From IMG/VR virus record IMGVR_UViG_3300049846_002097, positions 1 to 21,533 of that record: DNA of 21,533 bases. One strand, given 5' to 3'. Shown here one piece after another: positions 10,288 through 20,506 of the stretch. Within the stretch, counting starts at the first letter, position 1; each line of letters opens with the position of its first letter. The notes below the pieces were generated by a model that saw nothing but the letters and a program-made list of their open reading frames with translations, was not told the origin of the DNA and made no database searches. A program made the translations under genes and the position numbers. This DNA is from a virus.

Positions 10288-12684
10288 TTAGTCTAGATAA
10301 AAATCTCTAACTTGATCATATTTTGGTCTACCAAAAGGATCATCAATAGATGTACGTGGAATCTGTACTCCAGGAAAAGCAGTTCTAGGTCCCTCTAAGG
10401 ATCCCCAAAAAGCATCTTTTTGAAATTCTTGAGTAGGGTAGACCATGTCATTAAAAACCTTTAAACCACTATGGGCCCCACCGTATGCTTGTTCAAATTC
10501 ATTCTCATATAGAAACCAAATCCCATACATACAGAAAAGACAACAGTCAACTATGTGCTCATTATGGGTAGTATATTTAGTAGTATTTAAGGTAGTTTTT
10601 ACTACTTTATACCCTAATAGCTGATTAGCGAGAGTTTCATCGTGTCTTGGTAATCTGAATCTTCTTTCTTGTAGCTGTTTTTGAAGCATTCCAACTAAAA
10701 CAGGTTTTAGAAGTTTCTTTTCCATTTCATTAGTTGATGGGTTGGGAACTTCAATCTTTTCATTAAACGCTTTCTTGATAAGTCTACCTGCTAACTCAGA
10801 TCCCCTTCTCTCGCTCTCCATTTGAAGGTATTCCCACTGAACTTCACCTTGTCCTTGGTCAGCAATAACTAATTCAGGTCTATATGCTTCAAAAAGTTCT
10901 AAGATAAGATTACAAGCATTCATGTAGGTAAATCTATCTCTAGCAACCTCTTCTCGATAAATAACCTCTGTAGTTCTCATTACAGGGTCATATTGGAATA
11001 CAGCAACGTTAGTTCCAGCTTGAGCTTTATCCCAATCAACTCCAATGAAGCGTACTCTAGCTTCATCAATATTTTGGGTACCATATTCCCAATCATTTTG
11101 AGAACATGCTTGAATGTCTGCTTTTCTAAAAACAGCAGTATCCGCTTCGCCTAGCTGTAGAAGCCATTCCGTAGTCCAAATATTATGAGGAGTAGAGGAT
11201 CTAATTTGCTCTCGCATCTCATCTGTATATTCCAGATTTTCTGTAATAGGAATATAGACTCTTTCTTCATGATCTGCTGGTCTTAGTTTATATATCTTTT
11301 CATAATAATAATTTGTAGGATTATCTGGAGTTGTTCCTGCAATGTAGGACTTAACTTTGCCCATCCTAAACTTATCACCATGCATAATTGGGTTGATAAC
11401 TTTCCAATCGTCTTCATCAAGTAATTGTGCCTCATCTACAAAAACAATGTCGGCAGTAATACCCTTTTTAGCTCCTTCAATGCTACCTGCTAATCCCATA
11501 AGATAACCTTGAATTGTTGAACCATTTGTAAAGGATCTTTTCTGAGGAGTTTTATGATTACCTTCATTAGCTTGTAAAGCCTGCAGGAATGGATTCTTTG
11601 CAATCCATTTATCAATTACTTCAAAGAACTCATTAATCTGGATGGAGGAAGGTGCGAAGACAACTATCTTTTGTCCTGGCTTCATAATAGCATGCCAAAT
11701 AGCTGCTATACTAAGGGAGTAAGAATTGTGAAGAACAATATCATTACCTATAAAATTATGGTCTGGATGATCTACGCTAAGATCATAAACTAGCCTTTCA
11801 CCTATTTTTCTAGCAGATACAACAGTTTCCCATTTTCTAGGACTTCTTACCTCTGTAACTACATGATCAATGCCAATAGAATGGAGAAAATGACTTTTAT
11901 CCATGTCAGCATCAACAAATAGATTACCATCTTCATCTATTCTGGAATGTACACCAAATCGAGCTAAAAGATGCCTCAAATCAAGAGCAAGCTCTCTTGA
12001 CCAAATCATAAATGCTAGACAATTATATTGGTGCAGTAATCTACCCTTTTCAAGAAAGAATTCTCTTAAAAAAACAGTTAGAGACTTTTTGGTATATTTA
12101 TAGACAGAATCTGCTATGCGATTGGTCATAAATGAAAATTCTACATCTAAATATAGAGAATCTTCATCTGGATCTAAATCTCCAAAGATTTCAAGGGTTG
12201 TAGGTGCTAAAATCTTGTCACCTAGCGATATTTGAGATGCCTGAACCCATCCTCTTCTAGAACAGAAGACAGGATGATCTGTACTAAGGCTAACCGAAGT
12301 GCCACACTCCAGTTCTAGTTTAATACACCTCTTCATACCAGATTCTATCCAGGTACAAGGAACTAAGACTGTTTTATTAGTTTCAAAGTCAAAAGCTAAG
12401 GTAGTCTTAAATTGAGAAGCTTGAGAAATAGGTGTAGGCTTCAGTGTGTCTGGATCTATGACTAAAGTGTCTCCAGTAACACACTTTCCAGCTCTTCTAT
12501 GTACACAAACCCACACATCTCTCTTCTTGGAGTCAAGAATGAAACGTTGTGGGTAAGTAGCCTTAAAAGGAGTACCTTGAGTTGGATCAATTAGAAAATG
12601 TTCAGCAAATTTTAAAGCACTGTCTCTTGCTTCAATAAAAGCCTTTCTAACTTCTGGTCGAAGATCTCGTGGATCAAAATTCAT
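10288..12684 (-). CDS. terL: Terminase large subunit (ATPase-nuclease) with intein
   Basis: A 798-aa precursor; the mature protein without the intein would be 545 aa, normal for the family. The ATPase domain shows VCVHRRAGK at 60-67 which, joined to Ser321 after splicing, forms a terminase Walker A (RRAGKS). It also shows Walker B IVFVDEA (413-419, Asp417/Glu418) and coupling motif AGTTP (449-453). The C-terminal RNase H-like nuclease has FIGVDWD (Asp550), VIADQGQG (Asp609) and HIVDCC (Asp713), giving three acidic metal ligands. The protein docks on the portal, drives DNA into the prohead with ATP and cuts the concatemer. No clear Shine-Dalgarno precedes the ATG at 12684, only an A/T-rich spacer after the preceding stop, unlike most genes here. 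Confidence 0.93.
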   Translation of the reverse strand: MNFDPRDLRPEVRKAFIEARDSALKFAEHFLIDPTQGTPFKATYPQRFILDSKKRDVWVCVHRRAGKCVTGDTLVIDPDTLKPTPISQASQFKTTLAFDFETNKTVLVPCTWIESGMKRCIKLELECGTSVSLSTDHPVFCSRRGWVQASQISLGDKILAPTTLEIFGDLDPDEDSLYLDVEFSFMTNRIADSVYKYTKKSLTVFLREFFLEKGRLLHQYNCLAFMIWSRELALDLRHLLARFGVHSRIDEDGNLFVDADMDKSHFLHSIGIDHVVTEVRSPRKWETVVSARKIGERLVYDLSVDHPDHNFIGNDIVLHNSYSLSIAAIWHAIMKPGQKIVVFAPSSIQINEFFEVIDKWIAKNPFLQALQANEGNHKTPQKRSFTNGSTIQGYLMGLAGSIEGAKKGITADIVFVDEAQLLDEDDWKVINPIMHGDKFRMGKVKSYIAGTTPDNPTNYYYEKIYKLRPADHEERVYIPITENLEYTDEMREQIRSSTPHNIWTTEWLLQLGEADTAVFRKADIQACSQNDWEYGTQNIDEARVRFIGVDWDKAQAGTNVAVFQYDPVMRTTEVIYREEVARDRFTYMNACNLILELFEAYRPELVIADQGQGEVQWEYLQMESERRGSELAGRLIKKAFNEKIEVPNPSTNEMEKKLLKPVLVGMLQKQLQERRFRLPRHDETLANQLLGYKVVKTTLNTTKYTTHNEHIVDCCLFCMYGIWFLYENEFEQAYGGAHSGLKVFNDMVYPTQEFQKDAFWGSLEGPRTAFPGVQIPRTSIDDPFGRPKYDQVRDFYLD
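11725..12483 (-). mobile_element. Intein inside the terminase P-loop
   Basis: In-frame insertion of 253 residues (68-320 of the precursor). It starts with Cys1 in CVTGDTLV (block A), has block B as VSLSTDHPVF (the Thr-x-x-His signature), and ends with block F VYDLSVDHPDHNFIGND and block G VLHN, followed by Ser as the +1 extein residue. All residues needed for class 1 splicing (Cys1, block B His, penultimate His, terminal Asn, +1 Ser) are present, so splicing is probably active. The excess over a minimal splicing domain, about residues 165-285, resembles a shrunken LAGLIDADG endonuclease region: a motif at about 201-214 (LTVFLREFFLEKG) and SRELALDLRHLLARFG at 229-244. The catalytic acidic position is not kept. 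Confidence 0.92.
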
Positions 12685-16739: not shown

Positions 16740-16767
16740 AATAAAATAGAGGGAGCTCTATTTTATT
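16740..16767. promoter_or_regulatory. Perfect 12-bp-arm palindrome in the divergent gap
   Basis: AATAAAATAGAG (16740-16751), centre GGAG (16752-16755), CTCTATTTTATT (16756-16767). It fills nearly all of the 32 bp between the hydrolase ATG (16736, minus) and the ATG at 16769 (plus). Each start codon is preceded by the same CTCTATTTTATT arm, 3 nt away on the minus strand and 1 nt away on the plus strand. It could be a bidirectional phage-specific promoter, an operator for a dimeric regulator, or an RNA hairpin showing GGAG in its loop on the plus transcript. Confidence 0.6.
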
Positions 16768-16768
16768 G

Positions 16769-19700
16769 ATGAATCCAGCTAACAAGAAAACTTTGTTTAC
16801 TCAACCATCTGCGAACATTACAGAACGTACTGTAGAGGGACAAGTTTCATATGGACAGATTGAAATTAACCCAGAAGTGTATGTCATTGAAGGTGGCAAA
16901 CCAAGAAGGTTAGTTGATCTTTTGGGTCTCCAAAAAAGTGATGGCAAGTATTTGCTAACACTAAGGGGAATCACAACTCACGATGGTGAGGAAATTTGGG
17001 CTGGAAAACAGGTTATTGAGAGATTAAATTCTAGACCTGGAATTCATCTTGCTGCGAATAACATGAGTGATTTTTATAGCTTTGCTAGATCTTATCAGAA
17101 AAGTTATTCAAAAATTATTGAAGCTAAGATGAGAATTGATGCCTTAGCTACAATTAACGAAGTTACAAAGAAGCTTGAAAAGCAGTTTGGTTCTGAATAT
17201 AAAATTCAAGTTAGAAGAGCCGATTTAATGAACTTGGTTGATCCATTTATGCCAGTAGATCCAAGACTAACTAAAGATCTTAAATGGAACATGGATAATC
17301 ACCTAGATTTCAAAGTATACGCAAATATTGAAGATATGCCTGGTGGTTCTCAAGCATACGTAGGTAATACTAATGTTAGCTATGCCAGAATTCAAGACGT
17401 TGATGCTGATACCTTAATGATGCTTCAAGTCAGAATTGTAGACCAGGCTGGTAAAGTTAAAGGTACATGGTTATGGGACAAAAAATTCCCCCATACAACT
17501 CATCAAGTAGGAAGTTATCTAGCTAAAGGTAGAAGAGATCTTGAAGGAGATGTATATGATAAATTTAAAGTTTATCGTAGAATAGTATCTCCTTGGGGTC
17601 AGAAAGGTGTCTACTCAGATGGTCAAGGCATTCGTGAAATTATGGGTCAGGCTGCTGATTTAGCTAAGAAAATGTCTGTCAATACCTACAGAGACAGAGA
17701 TCAACTTGCAGAAACAATAGCCAAAACTATTAGAGCTGACTTAACTGGTATATTTACCACCAAACAGTGGCAGCACGAAGCACTGCAGTTTGAAAACATT
17801 CTTAACTATATTCCAGAATACCTTGCCACAGAATTACAACTATCTAAATCTGACTCCAGAATAGAAGAGCTTGTCAAGTTTTTAAATAAAACTGGCAACA
17901 AAGCTGCTTTGCGATTGAAGTATAATATGGGTCTTAAGGGAGCTAGACTAAAGGGTACAGAAGGCATTCTTAAGATGCGAGACTTGGGTGATATTAGAAC
18001 GAATGAACACCTAGAAGCGCTATTCCTAAAAGTAGCTTACTCTATGCAAGATAGAATTTTAGCTGCAGGTCAAATGGATAAGTATGGATATGATGAAAGT
18101 AGATTACTAACTACTGAATTCATGACAGCTGATCCATTAACTAGAATGAAGATGATTATGGGACATCAGTCTCCTACTTTTACTAAAAGTAAGGGATATC
18201 AAACTAATAGAAAACACACCCCTGTTGAAATAATTCCAGATACTGAATTAAAATTACGATCAGGTGCTAAAAGAGTTCCAATCATAGATACTCTTAAGAG
18301 TATGAAAATTAGAGATCAAGTTACTGGAACTACTGACAATATGCTTAAAGTGCAAGAAATTGACTTTGAATCTGTTCTTTCAAAAGAGTATTTGGATCAA
18401 ATTGATCCAAAATTAAGAGGAAAAGCAACTAAAGGGTATATTGTAACCATGAATGGTCTGGATCCAAAGGGAAATCTAGTTAGAAAGCCTTTAGGAGGCG
18501 CTAAATTCCCAACTACACTAGGTGATACTGAGCTATCTTGGGTATTGCTACCCACTCTTGATGTTACAACTGGTGAGATGGTAGATCCATTAGAATTATT
18601 AAAGAATAAAGTTGAAGTTGCAGCTAAGTATAAATTAAGTCCATATTCTCATATCCACAGATATGGCTTAGGTGAGCTTGTTGGTGCCTATAGCTTAGAA
18701 AACCTAAGAAGACCAGGCTCAGTTAAGTATCTACGAAGATTAGCTGAAGCTAATAAAGTTCCTCTTGAAAGGGTACAGAGTTTAGTCAATAGCAGATCAG
18801 CTACCTCTGTAGAAATCTTAAAACAGTTTAAATTACAGCTTGATTTAGTAAGCCAAGGTGATATGGGCACTACTGTAGAACAAGATATCAGAAGACTTCT
18901 AGAAACTGCACTTGGAGCTATGGGTGTAGATGTTCAAACTGTTAGAGATAGATCAGGAAATGTCTATCTAAAGAATGAGCACATAGTTCGTCACCTTTCA
19001 GAAATGGTAACTTTAACTACATCTATTCAAAATCTCAATCCAGAGGAGACAGCTAAGTATATTGCTGGAAACTTTTCTAAGTTTCCAACCTTAGCTGCTG
19101 TTAAACCATCACAAAATGATGCAACTACTTTCTTTGGAATAAGAGCAGTTCAACAGGATGGAAGAATGACAGCACTATCTGCTGGAGATATTCTGTTTGA
19201 TCCTAAAAGAAAGCTTAAAATTGCTAAAATGGCTCAGCATAGTATTGATGCTGGTGATTTTAGGGTAGCTGTAGTTACAATGGACTTTAAGGAGCAGATG
19301 CTTAAAGATATGGGTCTTATTAAAGAAAACGGTAAATGGATCAGGCCCAAAGATAAGCATGGCAATCTACTTCCTGGTGCATTTGGTGATAAGGCTAACT
19401 TCCAAGCAGAGTATATAGATGAAGGTTTTGCAGCATTAACAGAATCAGGCACTAGAAAGATGCAACAAGCTATTTTGAATAACCTACAGCCTGGTGTTGA
19501 TTATACATTTGAAAGACCTAAGGGTCAAAGTCACTCTTACAGAATTTGGGACTCTTTAGAAGGTAAATATCGTACAGTCTATACTAAAGAACCTATTGAG
19601 TTTAATAGAGTAGCTCACACTAGAGTTGGTGATATTAGAATCTTCCCCCATGCTGGAGCAATAGGAAAAGCAGTTGCTACTAGAGGTGGAATACAGGAAG

Positions 19701-20506
19701 AAGTAGATATGTTTCTAAGCCTTGGTGAATTAATGTCTAAATCTGGTGCTCCAGAGATGATGAGACAGCTAGTATCACAAGCTGGAGGGGATGCAGAAAG
19801 AGCATGGGATGAGGCTGTAAAGGCTGGAATGAATAGTAAACAAGCAGACGAATTTATTCAGAACTATCAAGATATTCTGGGCTCTGCAGTTTCTTTTGTA
19901 CTAAATAATAAATCTAAGGAAAAGATTGAAGCAAGTGGCATTCCAGTTTATAACGTTGGTCTTCAAATAAGAAACTTAGATGCTGATAGGCAGATCCATG
20001 CTTTTAGTGCATGGGGAACTTGGAGTGACCAAGTTCAAGCATATACTCATCAGGGAGGAAATGTAGAAGGCTTAATTCTTAAAGGTCAAGCTAATATGGA
20101 CTCCATGGCTGAATTTGGCTTTGGATTCCATAGATTCCTATCAGAACAGGGCTTTATGCCTGAGGGCTTAGGAGTTTCTGATCTTTTAGATGTTATCTAT
20201 GAAGGCCTTGATAAAGCACAGGGTACTTCAATATTTCATCAGGTAGGTAACTCAGCATCAGAAGACCAAATTCAAGCAGTAGCCAAAGCTATTTATATAG
20301 GAACAGCTTCAATGAAGTCTCAATATAAAAATATGGCTCAAGCTGAATCTGAGGCTATGCAAGCACTAAGCTTAGATAAGTCTAAGCAATATAATCTCAT
20401 GCAAGAAGCCTTTAAGAAAGGTATAGCAGCTGCAATTGGTACAGCAGGTACAGAAAATGCAGATACAATCTTACGTGCTGTCATGGCGGGGCTTGTTAGA
20501 TTCTAA
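16769..20506 (+). CDS. Very large protein of unknown function, 1245 aa
   Basis: Starts MNPANKKTLFTQPSANITERT. ATG at 16769 is preferred; a TTG lies one codon before. The nearest ribosome-like GGAG is in the palindrome loop, 13 nt upstream. The protein is soluble, mixed alpha/beta, without signal peptide, membrane helix or long coiled coil. Blocks that look structured are about 285-345 (GIREIMGQAADLAKKM and following), 640-720 (YKLSPYSHIHRYGLGELVG), 820-930 (with MDFKEQMLKDMG and PKDKHGN) and 970-1010 (RVGDIRIFPHAGAIG). The C-terminus is helical and Gln/Ala-rich. I checked for RNA-polymerase DxDGD and found only DVDAD near residue 213, without the glycine. Size and late-region position suggest a virion or virion-ejected protein; the divergent strand sets it apart from the head operon. 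Followed by a terminator. Confidence 0.85.
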   Translation: MNPANKKTLFTQPSANITERTVEGQVSYGQIEINPEVYVIEGGKPRRLVDLLGLQKSDGKYLLTLRGITTHDGEEIWAGKQVIERLNSRPGIHLAANNMSDFYSFARSYQKSYSKIIEAKMRIDALATINEVTKKLEKQFGSEYKIQVRRADLMNLVDPFMPVDPRLTKDLKWNMDNHLDFKVYANIEDMPGGSQAYVGNTNVSYARIQDVDADTLMMLQVRIVDQAGKVKGTWLWDKKFPHTTHQVGSYLAKGRRDLEGDVYDKFKVYRRIVSPWGQKGVYSDGQGIREIMGQAADLAKKMSVNTYRDRDQLAETIAKTIRADLTGIFTTKQWQHEALQFENILNYIPEYLATELQLSKSDSRIEELVKFLNKTGNKAALRLKYNMGLKGARLKGTEGILKMRDLGDIRTNEHLEALFLKVAYSMQDRILAAGQMDKYGYDESRLLTTEFMTADPLTRMKMIMGHQSPTFTKSKGYQTNRKHTPVEIIPDTELKLRSGAKRVPIIDTLKSMKIRDQVTGTTDNMLKVQEIDFESVLSKEYLDQIDPKLRGKATKGYIVTMNGLDPKGNLVRKPLGGAKFPTTLGDTELSWVLLPTLDVTTGEMVDPLELLKNKVEVAAKYKLSPYSHIHRYGLGELVGAYSLENLRRPGSVKYLRRLAEANKVPLERVQSLVNSRSATSVEILKQFKLQLDLVSQGDMGTTVEQDIRRLLETALGAMGVDVQTVRDRSGNVYLKNEHIVRHLSEMVTLTTSIQNLNPEETAKYIAGNFSKFPTLAAVKPSQNDATTFFGIRAVQQDGRMTALSAGDILFDPKRKLKIAKMAQHSIDAGDFRVAVVTMDFKEQMLKDMGLIKENGKWIRPKDKHGNLLPGAFGDKANFQAEYIDEGFAALTESGTRKMQQAILNNLQPGVDYTFERPKGQSHSYRIWDSLEGKYRTVYTKEPIEFNRVAHTRVGDIRIFPHAGAIGKAVATRGGIQEEVDMFLSLGELMSKSGAPEMMRQLVSQAGGDAERAWDEAVKAGMNSKQADEFIQNYQDILGSAVSFVLNNKSKEKIEASGIPVYNVGLQIRNLDADRQIHAFSAWGTWSDQVQAYTHQGGNVEGLILKGQANMDSMAEFGFGFHRFLSEQGFMPEGLGVSDLLDVIYEGLDKAQGTSIFHQVGNSASEDQIQAVAKAIYIGTASMKSQYKNMAQAESEAMQALSLDKSKQYNLMQEAFKKGIAAAIGTAGTENADTILRAVMAGLVRF

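Follow-up and report, generated by a model that had tools for sequence, protein, structure and literature searches.

Results

The window, that is, the whole stretch of 21,533 nucleotides analysed here, is a fragment of viral DNA (21.5 kb). It contains a block of head and packaging genes, in which a profile search recognises the portal, the major head protein and the large terminase (TerL). At TerL, portal and capsid, its nearest named relatives are Bacillus phage KLEB27-3, Moorella phage MTATph1 and Acinetobacter phage ME3, with about 24–31% identity. The strand opposite to the head genes carries a 1246-aa ORF (16766–20506, plus strand) without any PHROG match. The TerL gene is divided by an intein and has the following features:

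10288–12684, minus strand: gene of the large terminase, with a precursor of 798 aa that splicing would shorten to 545 aa (ORF; phrog_2 terminase large subunit, 3e-19; homologues)
12484–12684, minus strand: N-extein, residues 1–67, ending ...VHRRAGK (ORF; alignment with intein-free homologues)
12484–12501, minus strand: 5' part of Walker A, HRRAGK (sequence; alignment with intein-free homologues)
11725–12483, minus strand: class 1 intein, 253 aa, C68–N320 (ORF, Pfam and TIGR profiles, codon positions)
12199–12483, minus strand: N-terminal Hint half, blocks A and B (Cys1, STDH) (profiles, mini-intein matches, alignment)
11842–12198, minus strand: degenerate LAGLIDADG domain, reduced to one half (119 aa) that lacks the first motif (PF14528 match, KLEB27-3 alignment, model and Foldseek)
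12037–12078, minus strand: what is left of the second LAGLIDADG motif (TVFLREFFLEKGRL), with Lys at the position of the catalytic Asp (alignment of relatives)
11725–11841, minus strand: C-terminal Hint half, blocks F and G (VYDLSVDHPDHNF ... HN) (profiles, mini-intein matches, alignment)
11722–11724, minus strand: Ser321, predicted +1 nucleophile and Walker A Ser (sequence; alignment)
10288–11724, minus strand: C-extein, residues 321–798, remaining ATPase and nuclease (ORF; phrog_2 match)
11428–11445, minus strand: Walker B VFVDEA, the place at which a second intein sits in the relative L009 (alignment)

The product has the features of a TerL, namely the phrog_2 match (3e-19), Walker B VFVDEA and the Walker A sequence RRAGKS that splicing would create. 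Pfam Terminase_6N reached only 19.8 bits, under its cut-off of 22.

A class 1 intein divides the Walker A motif

The original prediction had placed an intein between Lys67 and Ser321 of the terminase Walker A motif, and coordinates, codons and profiles all agree with it. At the junctions, Lys67 (AAG) is followed by Cys68 (TGT, 12483–12481), and His-Asn 319–320 (11730–11725) by Ser321 (TCT, 11724–11722). A search against Hint/intein profiles had been set beforehand as a possible refutation; it returned Pfam PF14890 Intein_splicing with 45.4 bits (cut-off 35.8) and TIGR01443 intein_Cterm with 24.2 bits (cut-off 15.6), and the N-terminal profile TIGR01445 stayed at 17.8 bits, below its cut-off of 24.5. 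Both ends of the segment also match solved mini-inteins. In the four members of the family, i.e., the window and the relatives L009, L094 and L095 described below, the splicing residues Cys1, S67, H70, H252 and N253 (intein numbering) are invariant, and the +1 residue is Ser or Cys. Of the class 1 residues named in the original prediction, Cys1, the terminal HN and the +1 Ser thus stand, but block B had been read as TDHP. The TxxH of this block corresponds to S67-T-D-H70 in the window, with Ser at the canonical Thr position three residues before the invariant His; the Thr of TDHP is not conserved.

Intein-free homologues were compared at the same site. The segment is absent from all that were aligned, and Walker A is read through unbroken, as HRRAGKSYS and similar: the site reads RVHRRAGKSYSM in L010, RAHRRGGKSYSM in L011, RVPRRQGKSYSL in L012 and RMGRRTGKTTTV in MTATph1. 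In the window, the intein lies between the Lys and the Ser of this motif (HRRAGK/S, the slash marking the insertion here and below). When residues 68–320 are taken out, VCVHRRAGK-SYSLS results, which aligns with the intein-free homologues without gap; excision at exactly these points would hence restore the Walker A motif. The 545 aa predicted for the spliced terminase likewise hold (798 minus 253). The profile matches and the empty homologous sites rule out a chance ORF or a non-intein insertion, and recent acquisition is ruled out by codon use and GC content, which are the same as in the other genes. On these grounds, we regard the segment as confirmed to be a class 1 intein in a large terminase, predicted to splice. 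AlphaFold models of the Hint part were poor with two and with four sequences, with pLDDT mostly below 50 in the four-sequence model; the Hint assignment hence rests on the sequence profiles, and we restricted structural interpretation to the endonuclease remnant.

From the P-loop position it follows that the unspliced precursor should be inactive, and we soundly infer that DNA packaging is strictly dependent on splicing. The original prediction had gone further and suggested conditional splicing as a control point. On such a reading, the segment would splice only upon a trigger (redox, DNA or stress), or never, and so act as a packaging switch. An inactive precursor would suit such a switch, as would the Cys that the window and L094 have at position −8 relative to the splice site and that could form a disulfide trap. 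However, this sole visible candidate switch is not conserved among the members with the K/S site (Cys, Cys and Ala in the window, L094 and L095), and the shifted site of L009 has no equivalent. We hence discarded the redox trap, and the control point stays unsupported. The invariance of the splicing residues also argues against a switch, as does the fast splicing of the tested TerL inteins, which occupy five sites other than this one (b, c, e, f and g) and in two cases have an active endonuclease (PMC5050341). Altogether, a packaging switch appears very improbable.

The endonuclease is reduced to a half domain under selection

Between the Hint halves, about 119 residues match part of LAGLIDADG_3 (PF14528). 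The alignment with the full-length intein of KLEB27-3 shows two deletions, one of 58 columns that removes the first LAGLIDADG motif and one past the second motif. In the remaining motif, the position of the catalytic Asp is occupied by K in the window and by V, Q and V in the three relatives. The window intein thus lacks the two motifs with catalytic acids that mark a LAGLIDADG homing intein. As only half a domain is left and its catalytic Asp is replaced, cleavage and with it self-homing should be lost, judging from these residues.

Among the relatives, identity at fourfold-degenerate sites is 0.25, which corresponds to saturation. Because dS is saturated, a neutral simulation replaced the dN/dS estimate. 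Simulated neutral drift at the same distance would leave an identity of about 0.08–0.11 in the remnant, whereas its amino acid sequence is 29–44% identical among the four relatives, with three gap columns that are confined to one sequence. It follows that the dead LAGLIDADG remnant is under purifying selection.

This constraint might indicate that the half domain was domesticated, for example as a DNA-binding element or as a folding element for splicing, and that the intein persists for its usefulness. Residues 101–200 of the remnant were modelled well by AlphaFold (blocks of pLDDT 72–94), and the best compact PDB match of this model in Foldseek was the LAGLIDADG domain of WhiA, a regulator (2.4 Å over 80 columns), which would also be in agreement with domestication. 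Yet no other part of the intein is conserved less than the remnant, whose constraint could just reflect folding and solubility of the Hint domain. We see domestication as a rather unlikely alternative to retention of an intein that cannot be lost.

Orthologous inteins in three relatives

Single-sequence scans and a genome-contig search yielded no viral relatives; L094 and L095, contigs of about 100 kb each, came from a scan in which the window/L009 block served as query. In both contigs, the K/S junction holds the intein (HRRGGK/SHALS in L094, HRRAGK/SYSQI in L095). Between the window and its three relatives, intein identity is 43–45%, a divergence equal to that of the terminase. The L009 intein aligns gap-free with that of the window along the full 253 aa, at 45% identity; both have the same deletions when compared with KLEB27-3, and neither has the catalytic Asp. 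Among the four members, pairwise identity is 41–48% for the inteins and 41–46% for the extein portion that starts at Walker B, and gene order around TerL is common to all. In the tree, the window, L009, L094 and L095 form one clade with support of 100/100. The sister clade does not have the window-type intein; its member L023 contains a different intein elsewhere, downstream of Walker B (YYQW/C..HN/CHDTTG). Terminase inteins downstream of Walker B were also seen in L027 and in L098, where a full-length LAGLIDADG intein (GYMVGDG, FLDADG) lies at IIIG/C..HN/TTWH.

Intein and extein have diverged to the same degree, and deletions as well as synteny are shared, which points to one endonuclease-dead intein that the four phages inherited vertically. 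If instead related mobile inteins had inserted independently, the different site in L009 would be readily accounted for, and branch order inside the clade, which the tree does not resolve, would be compatible with it. Against this stand the gapless alignment of the window and L009 inteins with their common deletions and missing Asp, the equal divergence of intein and extein, and the inability of an element with a dead endonuclease to home on its own. Independent insertions are thus improbable compared with inheritance of one intein, although, with only four family members known, re-homing in trans keeps a small probability.

An apparent site shift in L009

In L009, the intein is inserted seven residues upstream (VYIA/CSRRSGKSMCL, compared with VWVCVHRRAGK/SYSL in the window), and splicing at either site would give a gapless Walker A. 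We interpret the L009 copy, from the alignments, as an orthologous intein that apparently shifted its site without an endonuclease of its own. K/S is probably the ancestral site, since three of the four members use it and the Ser at its +1 position is the conserved residue of the P-loop, in contrast to the +1 Cys of L009, which stands where the relatives have V, I or A. The shifted position may also be due to an assembly error. TGT at both L009 junctions was discarded as a sign of a repeat-mediated shift, because splicing needs Cys1 and Cys+1 anyway. Closely related inteins usually share one site (PMC2814812), a pattern from which the L009 copy departs, and the literature searched, with partial coverage, held no precedent for an intein site shift. 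That the endonuclease-dead intein slid seven codons in L009 without homing, and that in addition the remnant was domesticated for a role in splicing or packaging, is a tentative combined reading that we hold to be possible but not probable.

The L009 terminase also contains a second intein at the Walker B site (L009:2891–4021, 377 aa, ending ISN/C; Intein_splicing 48.9 bits). In its middle, the +1 frame encodes an apparently intact LAGLIDADG_2 endonuclease (PF03161, 6e-36; L009:3174–3977). Over this endonuclease ORF, the frame of the second intein has 0 stops; synonymous shuffles had 13 on average and never reached 0 (n = 5000). The nearest precedent that we found for such a nuclease in an overlapping frame is an HNH encoded out of frame in an insertion of a phage methylase, where splicing domains are absent (PMC11855218).

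Discussion

A terminase intein in the P-loop is not new as such, and this niche is well known. The mycobacteriophage intein TerL1-a lies in a large terminase between the invariant P-loop Lys and Thr (PMC5050341), so the class with an intein between Lys and Ser/Thr of the TerL P-loop is known and the window intein adds one member. Compared with TerL1-a (PMC5050341), the window TerL is of another terminase type (phrog_2/Terminase_6N-like), the endonuclease is a dead half-domain and the +1 residue is Ser instead of Thr. In a tblastn search of the window intein against phages, no mycobacteriophage TerL was among the matches.

The TerL of KLEB27-3 (OM634661), annotated there only as terminase, is homologous and carries an intein at the same K/S or K/T site of the P-loop. 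The window intein aligns along its length at about 20% identity; however, the KLEB27-3 intein has 403 aa with both LAGLIDADG halves and sits among intein-free relatives elsewhere in the tree. The placement implies that it either invaded separately or goes back to an ancient invasion common to both. The Vibrio phages Kuja (Ackermannviridae) and VPALA have their TerL inteins at the same junction, here GK/T, but theirs are 173-aa mini-inteins in distant terminases with +1 Thr, and only the splicing ends can be aligned with the window. Acinetobacter phage ME3 has a mini-intein in the P-loop of a homologous TerL as well, though three residues upstream (GRR/TGKT) and with 137 aa and no endonuclease. 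For the large terminases of phages Rak2 and K64-1, Hint plus LAGLIDADG has been reported (PMC5259590). Two further candidates were rejected: the intein of LR745208 lies in a putative DnaB-type helicase instead of TerL, and the TerL intein of the crAss-like phage cr53_1 lies at another site. The TerL gene of the latter (L007:2161–5340; NC_055889) has in-frame TAG codons and an intein-like insert away from Walker A.

We thus consider it very likely that the segment is a class 1 mini-intein in Walker A that excises itself, and that a former homing intein is now inherited vertically. Excision would start after translation with an N–S acyl shift at Cys1, followed by transfer to Ser321 and cyclisation of Asn253, whereby Lys would be joined to Ser and the ATPase restored. 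The formerly homing intein would have lost its nuclease, leaving the catalytically dead half LAGLIDADG domain. Vertical descent would be maintained because any inexact deletion from the P-loop would be lethal in a motor that is essential, which we infer to be the reason for retention of the intein.

The four syntenic phages retain an intein that should be unable to home, and they have done so long enough for silent sites to become saturated. This bears on the standing question whether inteins with a dead endonuclease persist because active sites do not allow their loss, or because they are useful. The history of this family, in which the intein is dead, inherited, constrained and once apparently displaced, is hence worth more than one added member of the class. 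If sliding without homing, together with a domesticated remnant, were true, an intein would have moved by seven codons within the P-loop region of an essential ATPase.
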